Shown: positions 22,965 to 55,820 of the stretch, one piece after another | How positions within the stretch are numbered: the stretch's first letter is position 1 | Layout of the letters: every line of letters starts with the position of its first letter | Assembly: GCA_963422465.1 (NCBI GenBank) | Contig: OY730172.1 | Location: forward strand, 4,154,001 to 4,218,000 | DNA length: 64,000 bases | Source: Lichina pygmaea | Taxonomy: Eukaryota; Ascomycota; Lichinomycetes; Lichinales; Lichinaceae | Reading direction: 5' to 3' | Translations under genes and position numbers: made by a program | Notes under the pieces: model-generated | Database searches by the model: none | Told to the model about the DNA's origin: nothing | Seen by the model: the letters and a program-made list of their open reading frames with translations, nothing else

Positions 22965-23164
22965 NNNNNNNNNNNNNNNNNNNNNNNNNNNNNNNNNNNN
23001 NNNNNNNNNNNNNNNNNNNNNNNNNNNNNNNNNNNNNNNNNNNNNNNNNNNNNNNNNNNNNNNNNNNNNNNNNNNNNNNNNNNNNNNNNNNNNNNNNNNN
23101 NNNNNNNNNNNNNNNNNNNNNNNNNNNNNNNNNNNNNNNNNNNNNNNNNNNNNNNNNNNNNNNN
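22965..23164. other. assembly gap (200 N)
   Basis: Exactly 200 undetermined bases, a conventional placeholder rather than a measured size. Confidence 0.99.
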
Positions 23165-24397: not shown

Positions 24398-27300
24398 TTT
24401 TATTTTATTTTATTTTATTTTATTTTATTCTTACACTGATTTAGCTGTAGAGCCATGCAGAACTTCTAGGTACATGTTTGTTTCTCCAGAAAACCTTTGG
24501 AGGAATAAAAACTGGAGCTTGGGAGAGACTAGGGAAAATCTTGTGGAATATGCAGTAGCTAAGGAAATTTGTACATGTAGCTATTTGTTAAAACAAACAG
24601 TTGACTTGGTAGAGCTTAGAAAGAGAGTTGGTGGGCTAGGTTGAACTGGTCAAGTCTTTTCAAAGACATAAACCAGAAAAGAAGTTTAGGAAGTAGCTTG
24701 GAGGAGAATAAGATAGATGGGAAATCTTGTAGAGGGAATTGGACTTGTTGTCTTTGGTTTGAAAATTTGTTACAGAAAAAAGTGATGTGTTGGGCTGTTT
24801 CTTCTCCAAAACCACATGTGCATAGAGGGGAGTTAAAGTCTGGAACATTTGCTCTGAAAAGAAAACTGGCCAGTCCTATTCTTGCTGACAGAATTTGAAG
24901 AAATAGACTAGACTCAGCTTTTCTCAAATCTTTGAAGATATTGAGGTTTTTCTTCTGTGGCCTTCTGGTGAACATGTCCCAAATAGCAGAACAATTTCCT
25001 CTGCTTACCTGCCATCTGGCTTCCCATTCTTTGTGGAAAACCTCCTGTAGACTTTTCTTTGAGAAGTCTTGGTTAGTAGTTAGTTGTTCCAGCCAGACTG
25101 TTCTCCAGTTTAGAGAAATAGTTGTCAGAGACTTTGGTGTAGTTCTGAGAGAAGAAACATAGAGAGAAATTTGACTGTGTAGTTTGTGGAGAAGTGTAGA
25201 AGGAGAGTTGGGTAGTGTGTTTGAATAGAAAGATGAAAGAAAACATGCTGTTCTCAGCTTGAAGTATAAGTCTAGAGGGGGTAGAAATAGTTCTGATTCA
25301 AGTAGGAAAATAGGAGTGGCTTTAAAGACACCTCCTATAGTTCTTAAACATTTATTTTGGAAAGTAGATAATGAAATAATATTAGAGAGTTTCTTTTGGG
25401 GATTGAACCAGACTCCTACTGCATAACTAAGAAGAGATCTTAGTATAGCAGTGTAGACATGACGTGCTGTTAGGACTGGTAGTCCCCAAGTAGAGTAGGT
25501 TGTTCTGGATAAAGCTGAGAAATATTTGGAGGCTTTCTGTGACATGATTTTTTGGTGTTTTTTCCAGACAAGTTTTGAGTCAAAATAAAGTCCCAAGATG
25601 CGCACTTCTTCTTTTGGTTGAAGTACCACTTCTCCAAGTCTTAGACTGAGCTGAAGATTGTCTCTTCTTCTAGAAAAATGGAGAAGTTCATACTTTTCAG
25701 GTGCAAACTTCATACCATGTTTTCTTGCCCAGTCCTGACATTTGGAATGTGTAGACTTCAACTTGAGAAGGTTGCTTTTCAAGGAGGAGGAGAATGCAAG
25801 AAGATTAGTGTCATCTGCAAAACCAAGTGCTGAAACTCCTTTCTCAGGGGTGTGTACAGTATTGTGCAGTTCTGAGATATAGAAAAGAAATAGAATAGGA
25901 GAGAAAGGTGATCCTTGAGGGACTCCACAGTATATAGGGAACTGGGGGGATTCTGAGTCATCAAACACCAGAGAGGTAGTACGTGAAGTAGTGAAGGAAA
26001 AGATCCAGGATACAAACCACTTAGGAATCATTCTCTTAATCAGGATCTTTCTGAGAACTTCTGGCAAGACTCTGTCATAGGCTCCAGAGATGTCTAGAGA
26101 GAGAAGACTAGCAACCATTCCTTCTTTCCAGATCTTTTCTACCTGGGAGGTCAGAAGAAAAAGTGCTGATTCTGTTGATCTTCCTTTTCTGAATCCCATC
26201 TGGATTTCTGGCAAGAGATTTTCTTTCTCAGCTAGTTCACTTAGTCTTGCAGCTGCAATAGCTTCCATTAGCTTCCCAATTGTATTCAGGAGAGCTATAG
26301 GGCGCCATGCTTTTGCTTGACAGTAGGATCCCTTGCCAGGTTTCCTTAGGCAGATTGTCTTGGCCACAGTTGAGCTATGCCGAGGCATAGCGCAGAGTCG
26401 ACATCCCGTGCAGGGTCTCTGCCACGCTTCCCCGCAGTCCTGAGGTCTTTTGCGCTCCGCCGTGTACGCTCACCCCTAGGTCCTGCTTCGGAGCGCCGGG
26501 TTGCCAGCCCGGAGCCCACGCTCCAACTGCAGTTTGCTCCTTGAGCCCGTCATTTGCAGCCTGAGCCTGCACTCTGTACGGACCGGCATGCGCTTCCGTC
26601 CTCTCGGGCCATATAGACAGTCTCGTAGTAGGCCCAGACCCTACTGCCGTCACTGCCATTATATGCCACGCCCCGCAGCTCTCGCTGTTTCGCGTTATCT
26701 CTGTAGATCTCTCGTACAGAGGCCGACCATGCCTCGCAGGCTCTACGGACCCTGCAGGCCATGCCAGCACCTGCAGGACCGCCTTTCCAGCCCACTAACC
26801 AAGTAGGGAGAAGTCTCCGTCTGCCCGCTGTCGCCTGTGGGACCCCGGATGTACGTGGTGGCCCACTGGAGAACCTCCAGTGCCCTAGCCCCGGTCCGTA
26901 GGTGGCCCGAAGAGAATCCGTGGCAAGACCTTAGGCAAAACCATCAAGCCAGCACTTTGACTATCACACGGCCCTTAGGTACTGGAGCGGCGGAAACCCT
27001 TCGTGCCACCTGCTCGCCTTCTTTAACACGTAGTCCCCGTTCGATTAACAACGCCGCGGTACAGACATCGCTCCCCTCCTAGAACAAGATCCTCGATGCA
27101 TCAGCTGCTGGAGACTCTGCCAGAAGGGGGGTGTGCGATAGGAACTCCTCTCGTCTACTCCAGAGGTGCCCTGTCGGGTGTCTAGACTTCACATCCACCA
27201 GTTGCAAGGCTGGCTTCGGGCCGTAGCGTACACGGTAGACATCCGTCGGGTGGTTTTCATAACCAGTTTGGTCGAAGTCCTCTGTTCTGCTGATGTCGCT

Positions 27301-27487
27301 TCACGGGGGCGTCCAGGGTGCCTGCACGACACCTCCGGTGGCCCGTCGCTCCACGGGCACCAGCAGCTCGACCGGTGACTCAATTAGCTCTCGGTGCAGC
27401 GACTACAAGCAGCTTGGGAGACTGCCTGCCATCGCTGCCCCGAGGTTCCCAGCCTGCACCGCGTGGAGGTTTGAGTCTTCGCAGGCC
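24398..27487 (-). mobile_element. chimeric LINE (non-LTR retrotransposon) insertion
   Basis: A 3090-bp insertion on the minus strand bounded by the perfect 12-bp duplication ACAGTACAGTAG. The 3' end is a (TAAAA)n tail of about six units (24398-24430 on the plus strand). The 3' two thirds is a LINE ORF2 from the start of the reverse transcriptase onward. The first 1.1 kb (about 26385-27487) is GC-rich, has no endonuclease or gag motif that I can see, and differs sharply in base composition from the A+T-rich reverse transcriptase part. The duplications enclose both parts, so both went in together. This suggests a fusion made by template switching, as known for the MINE elements of Magnaporthe. 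A native GC-rich 5' leader joined by deletion is the alternative. Confidence 0.85.
24616..26388 (-). CDS. LINE reverse transcriptase, ORF2 3' part
   Basis: A 590-codon uninterrupted frame. It starts at the block just before RT motif 1 (TVAKTICLRKPGKGSY, AWRPIALLNTIGKLMEAI). Next come IQMGFRKGRSTESALFLL, LLSLDISGAYDRV (motif A), CGVPQGSPFSPILFLFYISE (motif B), GFADDTNLLAFS (motif C with F-A-D-D), the thumb region and a C-terminal zinc knuckle CTCGFGEETAQHITFFC. I see no RNase H domain between thumb and knuckle. The N-terminal endonuclease is absent. The ATG at 26388 lies at or near the junction with the GC-rich 5' part and may not be a natural start. The absence of stops suggests a young insertion. 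Confidence 0.9.
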   Translation of the reverse strand: MPRHSSTVAKTICLRKPGKGSYCQAKAWRPIALLNTIGKLMEAIAAARLSELAEKENLLPEIQMGFRKGRSTESALFLLTSQVEKIWKEGMVASLLSLDISGAYDRVLPEVLRKILIKRMIPKWFVSWIFSFTTSRTTSLVFDDSESPQFPIYCGVPQGSPFSPILFLFYISELHNTVHTPEKGVSALGFADDTNLLAFSSSLKSNLLKLKSTHSKCQDWARKHGMKFAPEKYELLHFSRRRDNLQLSLRLGEVVLQPKEEVRILGLYFDSKLVWKKHQKIMSQKASKYFSALSRTTYSTWGLPVLTARHVYTAILRSLLSYAVGVWFNPQKKLSNIISLSTFQNKCLRTIGGVFKATPIFLLESELFLPPLDLYFKLRTACFLSSFYSNTLPNSPSTLLHKLHSQISLYVSSLRTTPKSLTTISLNWRTVWLEQLTTNQDFSKKSLQEVFHKEWEARWQVSRGNCSAIWDMFTRRPQKKNLNIFKDLRKAESSLFLQILSARIGLASFLFRANVPDFNSPLCTCGFGEETAQHITFFCNKFSNQRQQVQFPLQDFPSILFSSKLLPKLLFWFMSLKRLDQFNLAHQLSF

Positions 27488-27499
27488 ACAGTACAGTAG
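27488..27499. repeat. target-site duplication, 5' side of chimeric LINE
   Basis: ACAGTACAGTAG, the partner of 24386-24397. Confidence 0.85.
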
Positions 27500-28199
27500 T
27501 AGCTCGACTACGTACTAGTCCTGCGTTATTTGGTGGTTGTGTTGCCGGCGGCAATGGCAGTGGTAGTGGCAGAGGCAGGGGAGTCAGAGACACCGTGCTA
27601 GGGATAATAAGTAGAGCTAGAGATGATCGATAGTGCTTGGAAGCTGCTTGGACTGGTACTTGCAGTGATTACTCAGATCGGAAGCGCGACGTGAGCGACG
27701 TCGTAAGAGCTGATTATAGTAACTCTAAGCGGAGTGGCAGACAGACCGTGATTTGACTGTCATCAAGCTTGCTCTCTGCTGGTGGGGCTGGTGCTGGTGG
27801 GGCTGCTAGTGCTTTTAGTGCTGTTGGTGGTGCTGGTGCTGGTGCTGCGGAGACTGGACGGTTTCACGACTCAAATTCAAGTCACGTAACTTGGCAGATC
27901 ACATCTCAGGACAAAAACCAGATTGACACGCTGGTCATGGTAGACCAGGGGATATACGGCACCTCCGAGGGTTGACACTTGTCATGTGTGAAGGGTAAGG
28001 AGAAGATTTGCTCGTACTGGAAGGATGATAGGGTGGCTGGAGTAGTGAGTACCGGTAGTTTTGTTCGTACAAGAATCATGATAGGAGTGGGTTACAATCA
28101 AACATTTTTCGACCATGTTGGCAGCATCACCGTAACGCTTGTCAATCCTTCCATGTCTTCCCCACCAGATGCTCTCCCCTCGCCGTCCTCGCCCTTCAA
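27500..28199. other. intergenic, GGTGCT-rich
   Basis: No gene seen. A degenerate (GGTGCT)n stretch lies at 27778-27850. The right end holds the 3' end of the rvt gene. Confidence 0.6.
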
Positions 28200-30978
28200 T
28201 CACCCCTGCCACCGAGCCTTCTCGCTTCTCAGGACGTCGAGGAGACCGATCGGAAGGAAGGCCTCCTCGCCGAGCCGCAGCCCACCAAACTGCTCGATGA
28301 TGGGCCCACCGTGGAGTTCGACGATCCACTTCCAGTAAGGCTGCATGAGCAACCAGTTGCTCTTGAAACCCGGCGTGACGGCGTCGTTGATGACCAGCGT
28401 CTGCAGCGCCCGATCAACGCGCGCGCTGGACTTGATGTGCTTCTCCGGAGGCACCTTCATGAGGTTGCGGTAGGCTTGCTCCAGCGGCAAGCTGGTCTCC
28501 TCGCGGAAGCGCGTGTACTCTTCAAGACTCATAAAGTCGTTGCCGTCCTCGTCAGCGCGGCCGAATCGCAAGGCGTACGAGTCGCCATGATCGCCGTCGA
28601 GGGAGCGCTTCCGCGCTAGGTGATACTTAATCTCGTCTTCTTCCAATGCACCGTCGACCCGCTCCGTCGGACTCCGCAAGAACTCCTCGCGCATGGCGAA
28701 GAGTTGGATGAGCGGATTCCTCAGATCGAGGCCTCCCAGCTCCACGGGAAAGTACAGGAAGCCGTCCGGAACGTGCTCGACACCGAACCGGTCCCGGATC
28801 ATCTGCCGGAGATGCTCGGCTACGGTGTCGGCTCTGATGGTTGCATCCTCCTCCTCCTCATCCTCCTTCTTCTCCCCCTCGAAGATCCTTCGCTGCACGT
28901 ACCCCAGCGTCTCGATCACCATGTCGACGTGTTGTCCGCCCATGCAGTAGGCGGCCTGCCCGAAGTTGACCCCGAAGAAGCGGTTGACGTAGCTGTTCCA
29001 TGCATGGACCCACCCGAGCACGCTGTCGCATGCCGACAGCTGCCGTCTGAGCTCGCGGATGTGGTCCTCGACCTGCGCCTTGTCGATGACCCACCGTGCA
29101 CTATCGGCCTCCAGCTGAAGGAATCCCCATCGAACGACGCCCATCGGAAGAGACGTCGAGAGGCTCTTCTCTTTGCTGGCGGCATCGGTGATCTGGGCGG
29201 CGCCGGTCTTCTCTTCGTTCAGCCCAAGGCCCATGACGTCGGCAAACTCTTTGATCGCCTTCCAGCCGTCGACGCAGACGCTCTCTTGACCCCACAGCCA
29301 CAGATCGTCATGAAAGCGGTAGAGAACACCGCCCTTGGTCTGCCGGTTGACGGCAAAGTCCAAGCAGAACAAGACGGCCTCGCCGAGAGCACTGCTCAGA
29401 ACATGGCTCATCGGGATTCCCGAAGCCCTCGTGTGCACCTCTGCGTCGCGACCGTCCTGAGCGAAGACGAGCGGTGTCTCAAGGAACCTCCTGAAGAGCT
29501 CGAGCCACTTGTCCTCGAAACCGAGGAACTTCAGGACCGCGAGAATCGTCGCGTGGGGAAGCGACGGCCCAAACCACTTGAAGTCGGACTGAAGGATGGT
29601 GAACTGGCCGTAGAGCTTCGTGTTTAGCAAGAGCTCCGTCGTCGCCAGATGAAGCAGCGACTGTTTTATGGCGAGCGGCGTGTGCGCCCCACCTCGATCG
29701 TGACGAGAGCTCGCGCTGGGCGAAAGTTCCTCGGCGTCGGCAACCGAATAATCGCGAGGCGCGTCTTCGAACGTTGAAGGCAGCTGCGTCATAAAGTACT
29801 TTTCCCGGTACTCGTCGCGTCTGACCTTCCGCACGGACGGGTCTCGAGAGGCCGATGACTTGACCCCTAGGCAGTGGTCGCGTCTTTCGCGCTCGGCCTT
29901 GCTCATGGAGCGGTAGGGCGATTCCAGCCAGGCGTCTGAAGATGCGAACGACGTGAAGGCTTCCTTCAGATACATGGCGAATTTTGCGCCGATGTAGTGG
30001 AGCAGAAGCGCCTGGTGGATCTCCTCGTCCATGAAGAACCTGTACTTGCCGTTGACCTGTCGTCGGATGTGAATGGGGATCGGGGACGGCTCCCATTTCC
30101 AGGAGTCGAGAGAGTCGAGATCCATGTTCAGAACATCGGCCATCTCCTTCAGTACCGGCGTGCGGCTCTGCAGATCGACCAGGACGGCTCTCTTCTGGCC
30201 GGTGAAAAGATCTTCCTGGAGCACGCCTCTGATGCACCTCTTCAGCACTTCCACGTCGAACCGTCCCAGCTCCTTCTTCCCAAACTTCTGGAACTTGTCA
30301 CGCAGGTTCTGATACGGCGTCTTCGTAACCTTCTTCGACTTGTGCGACGAGCCGAACAGGTTCTTGAGGTACGTCTTGATTGCCACCTTGTTGGGTTGCT
30401 TCCCGTCGAAAGCGTACGACTGAGCCCGGTCAACGATAAGACCGCAGGACACTCGCGAACGGACCGACGTGACTCACCTCCCATTCTCTCCGCTGCTGAT
30501 GCATCTCCTCCCGCCCAGCCTGCTCGAAGGACGCCGAGGTGGGGAGATCTTCCGAGCCCTGCGACGGCCCTCTCGGTCGAGATGAAGTTCCTCGGTCCTT
30601 CCTGCGTTCGATCCACTCGGTGACCAACCGGCCGAACAACGACGCATACTCGTACTTCCTGCTGTGGATGTTCAGCTCGGCCAGCAGATCCGATTGCCAC
30701 TCCTCGAGCAAGGCCCTCGACACCGAAGGGTCATGGCGCGACTGGTACAGAAAGCATTTGATGTTCTTCAACGACGTCCGAATGGCCGAGCTGGCCGGGA
30801 TGCCTAGCTTGTCGAAATCTCTGACCAGAGCTTCTACCTTCCGGTCGGCTTGCTGCTCGGTCGCAGCCCTCTCAAGCACGGAAGCTTTGCGGTCCTCGTA
30901 GTTTGCTCGCTGTCTGTCGAGCTTTCTCAGCTTGCGTTGCGTGACATGATACAATGTCGACAGCACTTCCAAGTCCAT
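28200..30978 (-). CDS. rvt: rvt-type cellular reverse transcriptase
   Basis: Exons on the minus strand 30478-30978 and 28200-30419 (58-nt intron, phase 0), 906 aa. The N-terminal 170 residues are charged and coiled-coil-like (from MDLEVLSTLYHVTQRKLRK). The RT core has LQSDFKWFGPSLPHATI (motif A, about residue 445), ASGIPMSHVLSSALGEA (motif B, about 500), YRFHDDLWLWG (motif C with D-D, about 535), GLGLNEEKTG (motif D) and VVRWGFLQLE. An insert-rich region precedes motif A, and a long C-terminal domain follows. No endonuclease, gag, integrase or repeats accompany it. This matches rvt, the single-copy domesticated RT lineage of fungi and some other eukaryotes, whose role is unknown. Both catalytic Asp pairs and the frame are intact. 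ATG 31191 is an in-frame alternative start. Confidence 0.88.
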
Positions 30979-32181
30979 CCTTCCGGCACTGTCCTGTAGG
31001 CTGCTGGCGGTGACGCTTGTCCTAAATAGATGCGGTGGAGTGCCGTGAGCGTATAGAGCTGCGAGCTGAGATCTTAGCCGGGATTGTAGTCGAGCGTGCC
31101 GAGATGCTGAGAAGAGCGTTCGATTCTGCGTATGTATCGTAGGGTAGCAGTGCTCAGTGGCTCTGGCTACCCAGGAATAGCCCCGGCTCATATGCTGAAT
31201 CTTGCTCCTAGTGCTGCTGCCTGGTGGGGCAGTTTAGACACGAGATCTGACCCTGATGCCCGCACGGCCCCGGGACGGATCATCTTCTCCCAACGTGACC
31301 ATGAGTCACCAGCAACCCCTTTCTGCTCGTGTCGTGCCGTATCCACGGCCGAGCGACCGGAGTAGCACTAGGAGTAGCGTAGGATAAAGCTTGGGCCAGT
31401 CCCCTAATCTCCAGCAGTAAGAGCCGCGAGACTACCCAGACGTGCCAGTATCAAACGTCCTTCTCGAAAAGGCAGATGTCAAGAGCCTGATCAAGCGTCT
31501 TGAGCGTACACAGTCCGTCGCTCGCTGGGAAGGAAGCCGGGACCGGCATCGAGAAGTTGTACTACAGCTTCCGTGCCAACCTGGCGTGCCTGGAGTGGAT
31601 CACGAGAGAACCACCTATGAAACCAGTTGGAGCTTGCAATGATGGTCCTGTAGAGCTACTCGCCCCTCTCGCTCTCTTCATCTTTCCCGGACACTTCGTC
31701 GTGGACCGTTCCACGTTGACGAACAAGCACATATTCAGGACGACGTGATGGTACGCCATCAGCCTGCAATGTTCGACACCTCGTGTTGGCACATTGTCCG
31801 ACGCAGACCTCAAAACATCCAGCTTAGCACGATGAATTGCTCGGTCATGCGTAAAATAAAGATGTTGTCTATGATAACGGGCCGTACTTGTAGTCCACTG
31901 TCTCGGTGGTTATAGTCTAATAGAGCTAGCTGTATTGGATTATGATTGCACAGGAAACAGAAAGGTCGAGCGAAACGCCAACATCCCACGATGACGACGA
32001 TGACGTGATTTATGCTCTCTGCTGGTTCAGTCCAGCTTACGTAAGCTAGCATAAGTGCATAACCATGCCACATGGAGAGGGGCACGAGAGGATCGTCGAG
32101 CGCCATATATTAGGTCTCCGACGTCATCTGTATCGCACCCATATCTGCTTATCCTGCGCTCGCCGGAAGCATTCAGCAGCC
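30979..32181. other. intergenic between divergent rvt and IDI1
   Basis: 1.2 kb with no convincing gene. It must hold both promoters. Confidence 0.55.
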
Positions 32182-33224
<1,043 letters not shown>

Positions 33225-33569
33225 TTAAGGTATCCGGGGGAGACAGGGGTTGGCGTGATCAGGTGGGGAATTTTGCGTACGGACTGGCTGGCCCGTCGGC
33301 TTCGATTGTGTCATTTTGAGGGTGGACCGGCCTTGTATCGTCTGCTCGGCATTGTCATTGTCTTCGACCGGAGAGGAGAATCCAAGATTCTGGTAGATGC
33401 TTTGGCATCCGCACCTGATGAGCAATATCATGGAACGAAGACGTGTATGCCATTTTCGAATCCGGTACGAGATACTAGAGTGAAGGCAGGCGCGATGACG
33501 AGCGAACGGTGAATGTGCAACGTACGGATGAAGTCCACCGCCTATCCGCAAGTCGACAACGATCATCGG
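33225..33569. other. convergent intergenic, 3' UTRs
   Basis: 345 bp between the stop codons of IDI1 and MLH1. No gene seen. Confidence 0.7.
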
Positions 33570-36006
33570 CTAGCATCGCTCGAAGACTCTGTACAGTCCC
33601 TTGAGGTTGGCCACCTCGAGGACGCCTTTGAGCAAGCCGTTGGTGGCCAGGAGCCGGGTCCGGAAGGCGGGAAAGAGGACGTGCTCGAGCGTTCTCTTGA
33701 GCTGGACTCGCTGCGCCTTGACGTCAGGGTCTTCCTCCTCCGCGCTGGGATCTCGATGCTCGTCCGAGGTTCCCCCTGCCGCCGGTGACGATGCCGATAG
33801 CGGTTCGGGCGGCAGGCTGGCGGGAACGCAGAAGGCCGCCAGCTCGACGAGGAAGGTGCGGAAGCACTCTTTCTCTTCAAGCCAGTTGACGTAGGGACCT
33901 AGCCGCAGCAGGAAACAGGGCAGCTTGGCGAGACTCGGCGTGTAGCCTTTCATGAGCAGCGGGAGGCCCCGGAGCTCGCCGTCTGCGGTGATATCCAGAG
34001 CAAAGTACTCTTCCAGCATCTCTCGACGCTCGATCAGCTGCTCCTCGACCTTGCGAATGGCGTCAGCCCAATCAAAATCATGACCGTCGTCGTCCGTTTC
34101 CATGGCGTCCATGCTCTCGCTTGCCGCCGTTTCTCGCTTCTCGTACTCGGCTCCTAGCACCAACAGGGACCGAAGACTCATCGGAGGCTCCAGCCGGATG
34201 GCGCCAAAGTTTCCAAAATCGGTCAGACCGACCTGATAGAAGTACTCGTTGCTACGGTCTCGGGTGTCAGTGGAGGGATCGGCGAAAGGAGCCGGACGAA
34301 CTTTCTCACCAGAGCATTCCGTAGTCCACCAGATACAGCTTGACACCACCCTGGATCGCAGCAATCCTCCTCCTCTCATCGACCACGCCAATGTACGTGT
34401 GGCCCGCAATCATCTCGGTGAGGTCATTGTGGACTTGGTCCCGCACCTCGGTTCTAAGCTCCTTGACGCTGGTCAGACGGCAAGGAATCCGTTCCCGATC
34501 ATTGTACTCGTAGTCACCATCCGGAGGCTGCGCCACGTTCGAGTCAAGCCCCCCCGAGACAGTAGGCTGGTTGGCTGCCAGCATTGACGTGATCTTCCTC
34601 ATCTTTGCGTCAGTGCGTATAAGGTTGTTCTCATACGGCTTCTTGCGCGTCGTGCTCCGACCGGCCAGGCTGGCGGTGTCTGCATCTCCGCGGACGGGGG
34701 TCGCTGGAGTCGCGATTCCTGGCAGGAGGGTTTGCGTCATGAACGTCCGGCTCGTGTCGACGTTGGCAAGTTGGGCCCGAACTTCGTCGCACAGTCTTTC
34801 GATAATCTCATCCTCGTGAAGGAAATGTACCTCACGCTTGGTGGGATGTATGTTGACATCCACGCGCTTGGGATCAATGTCCAGGCTGATGTAGATGAAG
34901 GGGTGGCCGCCTTTTGGTAAGAAAACCGAATAGACTTGCTCGACGGCCTTCTTGATGGCTGTAGACTCGACAGCGCGGTGATTGATAAACAGAAGAATAG
35001 TGGTACGCTTGACGTGGTAATTCGCATTGCTTGTCCATCCCTCGGCGCTGAAACCGAGCCGCGGATCGGTCACATGGAGCTGAACCAGCTCGTTCGCAAC
35101 GGCACTCCCATGAATGTGACGAATACGGTCGATAGTGCTTGCTGAGGCAGAGGTCGATATTGCCATGGTCGATTCACCATGCTTCTTGCAGGTAAAAGAT
35201 ACTCCTGCGCAATGCACAGCATATCGACCCATCATATCCAATATCTTTGCGTATTCCTCCGAAGGGGAGCTGAAGGCTCTGCGTCGAGTAGGTACGTTGT
35301 AGAAAAGATCCTCAACCTGAGCAAGCCATGAACCTCGCCCCTACCGAAGCTGTCGAGGTGCGTGTGGCTTACAGTGATCTGGGTACCCCGTCTCCCGGCT
35401 GTAGGTTTGGGATCCGCTGGCTGGCCGGGTTTTGCTGGCACAAGTTTCCCATCGGCATAGCTACTTCTCCAGGCGCAGTTCGAGTCTTTGGTCCTCGTTG
35501 TGACAGTCAGGTGAGCAATATGGCTGATACTCGCAAGGGCTTCTCCGCGAAAACCATATGTGCCGATCGACGTCAGATCTTCAAAGTCTTTCAATTTTGA
35601 CGTGGTAAAGCGTTCGCAAAGGATAGGAAGGTCATCACGCTAAGCAATTTTAGCAGATGAGGATGGCGAGGATACTGTAGGAAGAAACATTACGTTGATC
35701 CCGTGGCCGTTGTCCGTAATCTGTAGCAGCTTGAGGCCTCCATCCTTCACCACTATCTCTATGGAGGTGGACCCAGCATCGACAGCATTCTCGGTCAGCT
35801 CTTTTAGAGCGTGAACTGGGGCGACGATGATCTCGCCAGCGGCTATCTTGTTTACGACATCTTCATGTAGCGGCTGGCACATTGGGCTTAGCGATCGGCT
35901 TGGTAGAGAGAGATCAAGAGCATACCTTGATTCTTCTGGGTGTATGAAGATCTGAATCCGTATGATCAGCTTTTCTTTTCAGGCCTCTTGGAGCATTGTC
36001 TTCCAT
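33570..36006 (-). CDS. MLH1: DNA mismatch repair protein Mlh1
   Basis: Five exons on the minus strand: 35926-36006, 35694-35873, 35373-35639, 34310-35316 and 33570-34251, giving 738 aa with all phases consistent. The GHKL ATPase is shown by [30 protein letters not shown] (catalytic Glu/Asn block), [21 protein letters not shown] and [15 protein letters not shown] across the joins. A variable linker follows, then the PMS1-interaction domain ([20 protein letters not shown]) and the conserved final FERC. Mlh1 pairs with Pms1 or Mlh3 in nuclear mismatch repair and meiotic crossover. The N-terminal KRKADHT..PRR segment looks like a basic signal of the kind seen in filamentous fungi. A mariner remnant lies 162 bp upstream of the start codon. 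Confidence 0.97.
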
Positions 36007-53200: not shown

Positions 53201-53821
53201 AGCTCCGAGGACGAAGAGACCACAACAACTGCTGCAAAATGCACGTGAGACTGGACGGTTGTGACAAGTCTCCCGTCTCGCTAACGGCTTTGCATGTTGC
53301 GCCTGTCCAAAGATACAGCCATGCAGTGTCACCGTACAGTACAAACTTAGTCGATCAAGCATCACAATTGTCGTTCAGCCCAAGATGCGCCACCCAACGA
53401 GCGCCACCGGTACGAGGCGGGTTCACTTACTGATATTCCTGCGGGAAGGTAACAACATCTCGTGACAAATGCCGAGCATCCAGCCAGTCCAACCGTGGTC
53501 CATGACATTTTTCTTACCATCTGGCCTGCCCTCGGTTTGCGGAAGTGAATAGGGAAACCAAGATAGATACTTATGCTATATCGAAAGTATGATATGGTAA
53601 GACCCGGGTTAATGAGTCAGCCAGGCTCTATGATATGAGTCAGCGAATCGATTTCCGGACAAGTACCGGTAGCTCCGTACTGTACGTATGTAAAGGGTGG
53701 CGGGAGGAGTACGTATGGCTGACTCAGCCTCTCTCTGAGCGTCATAGTACCGAGTTGCCCTACATCTACCAGCAAAGATACAGAAGTAACTTCTCAACCT
53801 CTCCACGATCCGAACTAACAA
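50244..53821. other. long intergenic stretch
   Basis: 3.6 kb. The left few hundred bases are promoter and leader of the RRM gene. The remainder has many short overlapping frames without domain features. There is a 9-bp GGTGGTCCT minisatellite at 51624-51663. I cannot support a gene here. Confidence 0.55.
51624..51663 (+). repeat. 9-bp minisatellite (GGTGGTCCT)
   Basis: Four to five perfect adjacent copies. Confidence 0.9.
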
Positions 53822-53971: not shown

Positions 53972-54139
53972 GGGGATACGGTGCTTGCACAGCGAAGATT
54001 ACTATCATAGTTGGCCATATTCAGATCTACCCCTCCCGGCAGGCATTTTACACATCTGGCTATCAGTGCCCTCCTTCTAAGTACATCTACGACGCCTTCC
54101 CAGAAGAGCTACCCAAGGTACCTTCTTTATGAGGGAACG

Positions 54140-55820
54140 ATGTCGTCCTCGTTCCACCAATCCGATTTGGATCTCTGCTATCATCAACTTTCTCAAAGTC
54201 CTAATGCTTCTGTCATCTCTTGGCTCGATCAGTGCCCTTATCCTACAAGTCCCGACCAGGTCGACCTCACTCTTGAGGAGCAGTTTTTCGAAGTTGGCGA
54301 GAGTAAGTACTCGAGGCACCCGCTGAATACCACTCTGACTAGAGGAGCACCCCAATCGATTACGGCGATGTACAGCCCGACCAAGAGGCCTAGAAACGAA
54401 GGAAGTGATGAGGGTAGCGGGTTTCCGATAGCACGAACTCCCCCGCCGCCCATCAGGCGTCGGCCAGATCTCACACGCCCTCCATTGACGGTGCCCCTTA
54501 CTACGGGAGTAGACGAATCATCACAAGCACCATCGTCCCCTCGGACCAGTCAGAACAGATCGACAGGAAGCAACTCTCGTCAGCAAAAAAACGCTGTCAA
54601 GAAGGTCCTTCATCTCCGCTCCTTTGATACGCCGGTCCGATACCGACCATTGGACGAGGAAGTACTGCCTATTGCAATGAAAGCATTAGTGCAGACAATC
54701 GCTGCAGTTTCCGACAGTCAAGGGGGAATTTTCCCTAACCAGACCAAGGTAAGCATCCTCCCTTGTTAAGCTAAGAGAGCTCATGTGTTTTAGGGCCAAG
54801 ATGTTCAACGTCCCGAAAAGGAGAAAGATGCAGACTTGTTCTCCAATCATGTTCATGCAGTGCTCATGGAGATTGTCAGTGCTACGAAAGGTGCCTTAGA
54901 ATGGAATCGTTCAGAATCAGCGTGGACCCTCCTGGTTCACTATCCGATGCTGAAGCTGGCAATTTCGGGTCTCCCAAACATTGACGTCGAACTGATGTAA
55001 GTCTTACCTTTTTCTCTACTCTCAACCGACTAGTCATCACGGGACACTGTACCAAGATCTCCAGAGTTCAAAGTTACTAAGCTTTCACAGCACTACTGCG
55101 CAAATGCTGCCAGCCTTCCTACCGAAGCTCACCCCACCAACCACAACTCGATCTACCTCAAAACTCTCCACCGAAGCAGCAATGTCTCAAGGAAAGATGG
55201 TGGACCTTGCACTCTTATTGTGGCCGAAGCCCATTTCTTCCTCTATCTTGGCAGCTGCCATGGATTCCCTTATCCCAACATTACCACTCGACGAATGTTG
55301 TCTAAGTCAGACAGATTACGGCCCTTTATCCACATACCCAGCTCCTGTCGCAATCGAGACAAAGATGGCCAGTGGCAATATGGAGGAAGCTCGGATCCAG
55401 CTGGGTATCTGGACATCTGCATGGTTCCTCCGGATGCACAAGTTAATAAGGGAGCCAAAGACAACTGTCATGGCGGTACCAGTCATCATGGTACAAGGCC
55501 CGTGGTGGTTTGCGTATTTCGCATGCGAGACAGAGCAGGGTATCGTAAGTCTTTTGTTTTTTTGTTCCAAGTACAAATTGACTAATACCAGTACAACACT
55601 ATGTTTTCTGGGCAAATGTCGACTTTTTCTGATCAACTTCATCTGGCTAATATAACTTGGAGGGTAGGTGTTACATGGCCCACAACGTCTTGGAGAGACA
55701 AATACGAGCTACGGCATCTACACTCTGCTCGCATGTTTGAAGTCGATCGGAGAATGGCTAGATGGGCCATTCAAGCAATGGTTTTCGCGAGAAATTCTGG
55801 GTTTAGCAAAGCTAGATTAA
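54140..55820 (+). CDS. PD-(D/E)XK nuclease-like protein of the fungal multicopy family
   Basis: Exons 54140-54748, 54794-54996, 55091-55544 and 55668-55820 (introns 45, 94 and 123 nt), 472 aa. The N-terminus SVISWLDQCPYPTSP is the usual start of this family. A disordered Pro/Ser/Arg region with KRPRNEG follows, then the nuclease-like core: GKMVDLALLLWP (first Asp), LSQTDYGPLSTYPAPVAIETK (E-x-K), EEARIQLGIWTSAWF, VMVQGPWWFAYFA. The last exon reads LGETNTSYGIYTLLACL, WLDGPFKQWFSREILGLA. The nuclease residues D...E-x-K are present, so it could be active; the biological role is unknown. It sits among LINE fragments, as members often do in variable regions. The frame is intact. Confidence 0.85.

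Follow-up and report, generated by a model that had tools for sequence, protein, structure and literature searches.

Does an intact reverse transcriptase (RT) gene that lies about 2 kb from a retrotransposon belong to the host or to a mobile element, and what would its product polymerise? This question is raised by a locus of the ascomycete Lichina pygmaea, in a stretch of 64,000 nucleotides (assembly GCA_963422465.1, contig OY730172.1, positions 4,154,001 to 4,218,000 of the forward strand) that is called the window here and whose own numbering is used throughout. The gene runs on the minus strand from 30978 to 28200, in two exons, and encodes 906 residues with 0 internal stops. A preliminary description, made from the letters of the DNA alone, had taken it for rvt, an RT-related cellular gene, and the present analysis agrees: the gene is in all likelihood a cellular rvt, that is, a gene of the host which is intact and encodes an RT-related polymerase, and not a transposon. 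Rvt is a known class, of which the window gene is a further fungal representative; the new detail here is a glycine at the steric-gate position, where 12 of 12 bacterial proteins carry a tyrosine. Papers are cited below by their PMC numbers. Rvt is said to be the one RT group that bacteria and eukaryotes have in common (PMC5718144). The class had been called rare in the preliminary description, which is too strong for genes described elsewhere as widespread or as widely though patchily distributed (PMC10680173, PMC3520738); the statement that it has no known function no longer holds, since stress roles as well as non-templated polymerisation have been reported (PMC10680173). The name 'RVT' in PMC4920403 covers genes with endonuclease, RNase H or integrase domains, which form a different class.

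Among the PADLOC families, RT_UG37 is by far the best match of the window protein. Exon 2 (28200..30419, coding for 739 residues and the stop codon at 28202-28200) comprises the RT palm, the thumb and the C-terminal domain; it reaches 182.3 bits (E 3e-54), its best stretch pairing residues 37-579 with profile positions 158-665 of 778. Exon 1 (30478..30978), which encodes an N-terminal domain of 167 residues, adds 37.0 bits over profile positions 6-120. The runner-up family, RT_UG17, is confined to the palm with 28.5 bits, more than 150 bits below RT_UG37. Other RTs match the RT_UG37 model on the palm only, with at most 44.1 bits (in 3 of 8 genomes) and 39.6 bits in one plasmid. The general RT domain RVT_1, the sole Pfam report at E up to 1, gives 18.8 bits on the window palm, under its curated cutoff of 29.6, and the models and structures of long interspersed nuclear elements (LINEs), group II introns and other RTs yield weak matches confined to the palm. 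The preliminary description would have counted it against its own reading if LINE or group II intron RTs had matched best; in the profile searches they did not. A group II intron origin was rejected, the match to model TIGR04416 reaching 26.3 bits where the cutoff is 300.

Homology with bacterial RT_UG37 proteins, extending from the N- to the C-terminus, supports the rvt assignment. All 12 full-length bacterial open reading frames (ORFs) retrieved are matched by BLASTP, with best E values from 1e-44 to 2e-19 and in one or more pieces each. Once the window protein is aligned with these 12 (13 sequences, several bacterial rows being near duplicates), 61 columns are invariant, from K16, L20, Q23 and R24 to the C-terminal YWxW and P890, and the start of exon 1 aligns close to that of the bacterial proteins. 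Fungal rvt genes, including that of Neurospora crassa RVT, were reportedly treated by Gladyshev and Arkhipova in 2011, and one bacterial RVT, HaRVT from Herpetosiphon aurantiacus, is said to have been studied in vitro by Yushenova and Arkhipova in 2018. We take the protein of locus L153, from a carrier genome (G118) inferred to be H. aurantiacus, to be HaRVT. It is matched with E 5.9e-32 over residues 12-755, and with E 0.004 over a C-terminal piece. The two proteins are alike in their homology along the length, their motifs, the YW[KR]W signature and the spacing to motif A; they differ in that they are 21% identical, with 786 residues against 906 and Tyr against Gly at the steric gate, and in the location of the bacterial gene directly downstream of hisG. 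Because G118 has a single RT_UG37 match (2 of 8 first-look candidates being scored in the RT_UG37 search, and 5 of 6 in a search with alignment A2), RT_UG37 is very probably the bacterial rvt. Alignments A2 and A3 were built with eight of the 12 bacterial proteins of full length. No literature equating RT_UG37 with rvt was found, in a search that missed most subscription papers. Such an identity would bring fungal rvt genes into research on UG/DRT enzymes, and for PADLOC users 'DRT' matches to RT_UG37 need not mean defence genes.

The gene bears no sign of damage. Its 58-nt intron (30420..30477, GTGAGT...CAG, of GT-AG type) separates the open frame of exon 1, with its ATG at 30978, from that of exon 2; the length is no multiple of three, so that joining the frames requires splicing, and excision fuses them without a stop. 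The single short intron announced earlier is thus present, and the description of a 906-residue RT with a complete catalytic set holds in its frame, coordinates, splice sites and the residues Asp446, Asp538 and Asp539. The exon-2 frame spans 757 codons from stop to stop, whereas 30 first-order Markov simulations of 64 kb gave a longest stop-free run of 375 codons (mean 265), so this frame is not due to chance. Motif A (QSDFKWFGPSL, 29559..29591) carries the catalytic Asp446, invariant in 13/13 sequences. Motif C (RFHDDLWLW, 29292..29318) carries Asp538 and Asp539, the bacterial xDD lying one alignment column off through a one-residue misregister; the row of L160 reads FIDDI there. Motif B of RTs usually reads PQG, from which the window motif deviates (GIPMSHVLSSALGE, 29379..29420; bacterial rvts have, for example, GVPLHHRFSNVLGE). 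G564, L565, N568, K571 and G573 of motif D (GLGLNEEKTG, 29202..29231), and the next residue A574, are invariant in the 13 sequences. Features of rvt are an N-terminal coiled coil and a conserved C-terminal domain with Tyr residues; the C-terminal signature YWKWIVELHGGPIIEQFGGLRL (28272..28337), with YW[KR]W in 13/13 sequences, includes Tyr862, a candidate primer residue. The loop 2a insertion, with approximate limits 29586..30029, follows RT motifs 1/2 and precedes motif A: motif 1 lies 154 residues before the motif A aspartate, compared with 148-168 in the 12 bacterial rvts and 71 in a LINE of the window. This loop between RT2 and RT3, together with occurrence across domains of life, marks RVT, and the window gene shares with N. 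crassa RVT the character of an RT-related gene containing it (PMC5718144). No transposon parts were found in the window gene either, a further likeness to the fungal rvt genes.

The glycine at the steric gate is Gly451 (codon 29568..29570), five positions after Asp446 (Asp+5). This position of RTs is an aromatic gate against the 2'-OH of ribonucleotides, formed by Tyr115 in human immunodeficiency virus 1, Phe155 in Moloney murine leukaemia virus and Tyr717 in human TERT. The window protein reads D446-F-K-W-F-G451-P-S-L where 12/12 bacterial rvts read D-x-x-x-[FY]-Y-[PA]-[ST]-L, with no alignment gap between the aspartate and the leucine, both of them invariant in the 13 sequences. Asp+5 is Phe in group II intron RTs (first three structure alignments) and Tyr in the window LINE (LDISGAY). 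Gly451 is predicted to admit ribonucleoside triphosphates (NTPs), and the Tyr-gated bacterial rvts to use deoxyribonucleoside triphosphates (dNTPs); the choice between the two by the fungal and the bacterial RVT would then come down to one residue. RNA-dependent RNA polymerase activity is mentioned alongside RVT in PMC8381367. No literature linking rvt and the steric gate was found, the primary RVT papers lying outside the search, so that such a link may already be in print.

What such an enzyme might do in the cell can be sketched from its relatives. N. crassa RVT shows robust terminal transferase activity and is strongly upregulated under inhibition of protein synthesis (PMC3520738), and the non-templated polymerisation reported for RVT goes along with a stress alleviation that needs intact catalytic residues (PMC10680173). 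From this dependence comes the proposal that RVT adds ribonucleotides, untemplated and primed by itself or by an available end, as part of the starvation response; by analogy, the window gene would share a role in starvation or translation stress, and terminal transferase activity, with the fungal rvts (PMC3520738, PMC10680173). The N-terminal region would drive the formation of multimers, and synthesis would begin on RVT itself, with Tyr862 as candidate acceptor, or on any available 3' end. Nucleotide addition would be untemplated, and the window enzyme would use mainly ribonucleotides, because Gly451 could not exclude the 2'-OH, the Tyr-gated bacterial enzymes using dNTPs. The gene would be induced upon amino-acid shortage or translation block, and the resulting RNA tails or protein-linked RNA would aid survival in that state. 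Polymer, primer and target are those that we infer, and the chain as a whole, from multimer to stress role, is plausible while falling slightly short of an even chance. In vitro, untemplated polymerisation by RVT uses Mn2+. Still more tentative, and rather doubtful as a whole, is an evolutionary extension by which eukaryotic rvt and the bacterial 'defence' family UG37 would be one lineage: the change of the gate from Tyr to Gly would have made an RNA polymeriser of the eukaryotic branch, self-priming being kept, and a bacterial stress or defence enzyme would have become a fungal starvation-response enzyme.

Several points weigh against these readings. The identity of the window protein to the bacterial rvts is 20-25%. 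The heptad score for a coiled coil in its N-terminal region was matched or exceeded in 71/500 shuffles. A single-sequence AlphaFold2 model of exon 2 has a mean predicted local distance difference test score of 35.2, and the gate position is thus taken from the sequence alignment alone. The nucleotide preferences cited for N. crassa RVT (NTPs) and HaRVT (dNTPs) are those reported in abstracts. The starvation link at the locus amounts to one site, a single TGAGTCA (31302-31308) 324 nt upstream of the rvt ATG, in a region common to a NUDIX/IDI1-like gene; the TGASTCA motif, which we take to be the CPC1/GCN4-type site, was found 8 times in the window against 10.8 expected. Finally, an exact 14-nt direct repeat (27770-27783 and 32013-32026) stands on either side of the rvt gene. 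Its first copy leads into a GT-rich low-complexity tract.

An intact ORF of a LINE-type retrotransposon (one without long terminal repeats), or another mobile RT, would account for this repeat and for a palm with RT motifs, and a LINE-type ORF with an RT palm of its own indeed lies about 2 kb away (24616-26469, minus strand). Pairs of this kind are nevertheless common in the window: when it is cut into 36 overlapping tiles, 14 contain one, and so do 16 of 300 regions simulated with the same dinucleotide composition, so that the pair is weak evidence of insertion and is not read as a target-site duplication. Copies with target duplications had also been named beforehand as a point that would speak for a mobile element; the check, made within the window, gave this one flanking pair, within chance. 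No long flanking repeats were found around the gene, and no integrase, endonuclease or RNase H domain in its product (whole protein against Pfam, exon 2 against NCBIfam and PHROGs), in keeping with the earlier statement that transposon parts are missing. The LINE-type ORF matches RVT_1 with 121.5 bits over nearly the full domain, far above the cutoff under which the rvt palm remains, has no RT_UG37 match at E up to 10 and has other matches in PADLOC. The two genes also differ in codon usage. That of rvt (GC content of 0.605/0.396/0.788 at the three codon positions) correlates at 0.91 with an RPN1-type ORF, at 0.86 with a DEAD-box helicase and at 0.56-0.79 with six other host ORFs, but at -0.30 with the LINE; the host ORFs were taken as stop-to-stop frames, two of them being halves of MLH1, and the Zn-cluster and RNA-binding labels were given by eye. 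The N- and C-terminal regions of the window protein are moreover common to bacterial genes with one match per genome. A LINE or other mobile RT is thus highly improbable, and the earlier argument that the intact frame speaks for selection stands as far as intactness and host-like codon usage carry it, these two being its whole basis. An RT of telomerase or Penelope type, or a palm like that of spliceosomal Prp8, is hardly credible. It would suit a large RT-related host gene, and the next family, UG17 (28.5 bits), belongs to the DRT10 group, which is tied to telomerase in PMC12632851. That score is unspecific, however, the window LINE also reaching 27.7 bits with RT_UG17; UG37 surpasses it by more than 150 bits on the window protein, and Pfam gave nothing but RVT_1 at E up to 1. 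The Prp8 palm is without intact catalytic Asp residues, which the window protein has kept.

Unlikely, though less remote, is an antiviral DRT-like RT in a eukaryote, whose untemplated polymer would activate, or would itself be, a response against viruses or transposons. The best family match, RT_UG37, is after all a PADLOC DRT entry. The antiviral RTs of the UG/DRT groups (UG17/DRT10, DRT3a, DRT9) are alike in the palm, and some of them are protein-primed or untemplated (PMC12632851, PMC13174585); on the window protein they score at most 28.5 bits, and on the palm only. The phenotypes reported for RVT concern starvation and antibiotics (PMC10680173). Around the bacterial rvts, the ten neighbours scanned with Pfam are hisG, APH, HAD, LRR, MFS, MarR, a dehydrogenase, TIR plus beta-helix, a biotin carboxylase and one without match; the one TIR gene, adjoining one bacterial rvt, speaks for the antiviral reading. 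This gene (L171:10251-11780, minus strand), with a TIR domain and a beta-helix, is the sole possibly immune-related one among the ten. No recurring partner was seen when 53 of the 95 non-rvt ORFs from seven loci (none from L173) were scanned with PADLOC: 35 families were matched, each of the 25 families listed by one gene. Among the neighbours scanned, the 'DRT' label of PADLOC has no contextual support beyond the one TIR gene. In the window itself, Rfam gave no families in 26000-34000, which was the only search made there for a linked non-coding RNA or partner gene.

The cellular rvt reading leads to the question of how the bacterial relatives are distributed. At a threshold of E 1e-20 or better, RT_UG37 was found in 15 of 400 genomes of the Chloroflexota, the phylum of the Anaerolineae metagenome-assembled genome (MAG); 12 of these carriers hold a full-length gene, each with one RT_UG37 match, and three hold fragments only. 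One class of the phylum accounts for seven of the 15 (7/47 genomes). A search with alignment A2 matched 8 of 201 Chloroflexota genomes, all among the known carriers. None of 1128 genomes sampled from four other phyla gave a match (0/392 for the phylum of the Limnoglobus MAG, 0/296 for that of the Flavobacteriaceae MAG, 0/246 for that of the Actinomycetota MAG and 0/194 for that of the Leptolyngbya genome), although a search without matches is no proof of absence; among the sampled genomes, Chloroflexota alone yielded the family. RTs with an rvt domain are said to exist in many cyanobacteria (PMC3610870), which is at odds with the 0/194 for the Leptolyngbya phylum; these are perhaps of another kind. 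The three genomes with fragments (G336, G273 and G236, loci L163-L166), which were excluded from the alignments, hold either the N-terminal part of rvt or pieces of its C-terminal part, one of which contains two stops. Such fragments suggest decay or loss of rvt in some Chloroflexota, and contig ends could account for some of them. In G078 (L162), a longer A2 match passes through one TAG.

Beyond these genomes, tblastn returned 47 plasmid records, the best 20 of which align with 12-19% of the query in the palm region, with a best E of 0.1. Protein-based scans of genome contigs and viral contigs confirmed no relative. A DNA pattern for motif C picked out 23 stretches of viral contigs, with no rvt seen among them, and at least 117 stretches of genome contigs, in which tblastn at E up to 1 gave short chance-like matches only.

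Where the bacterial gene is kept, it shows purifying selection: the ratio of nonsynonymous to synonymous substitution rates is 0.07-0.15 in 15/15 pairs of six closely related bacterial rvts, a result that bears on the family and not on the window locus. In six closely related loci (L153-L158, the inferred H. aurantiacus included, with L169 and L170 as extended versions of two), rvt in every case directly follows hisG on the same strand, at a distance of about 30 nt; being near relatives, these loci count as one case. The arrangement is possibly an operon that would tie RVT to histidine or amino-acid synthesis. The genes adjoining rvt vary in the other loci viewed (L167, L168, L171, L172).

The fungal gene lies among host genes, which had been named as IDI1 and MLH1. 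The latter is confirmed by a Pfam Mlh1_C match, and IDI1 is plausible for a gene whose NUDIX match in Pfam is compatible with it; the first likely ATG of this NUDIX gene lies about 1.2 kb from that of rvt. The gene set of the window and the compact rvt intron look fungal, and among solved structures the NADPH-cytochrome P450 reductase encoded there is closest to 6t1t, a yeast enzyme. On the other side, the LINE-type ORF has no endonuclease domain in frame and a GC content at third codon positions of 0.37 amid GC-rich surroundings, and it looks truncated at its 5' end; an assembly gap of 200 N (22965-23164) lies about 1.5 kb from it. Farther along the window, three of the eight TGASTCA sites fall within 114 bp (53613-53726), upstream of an ORF at 54011-54769, and this cluster may be a regulated promoter.

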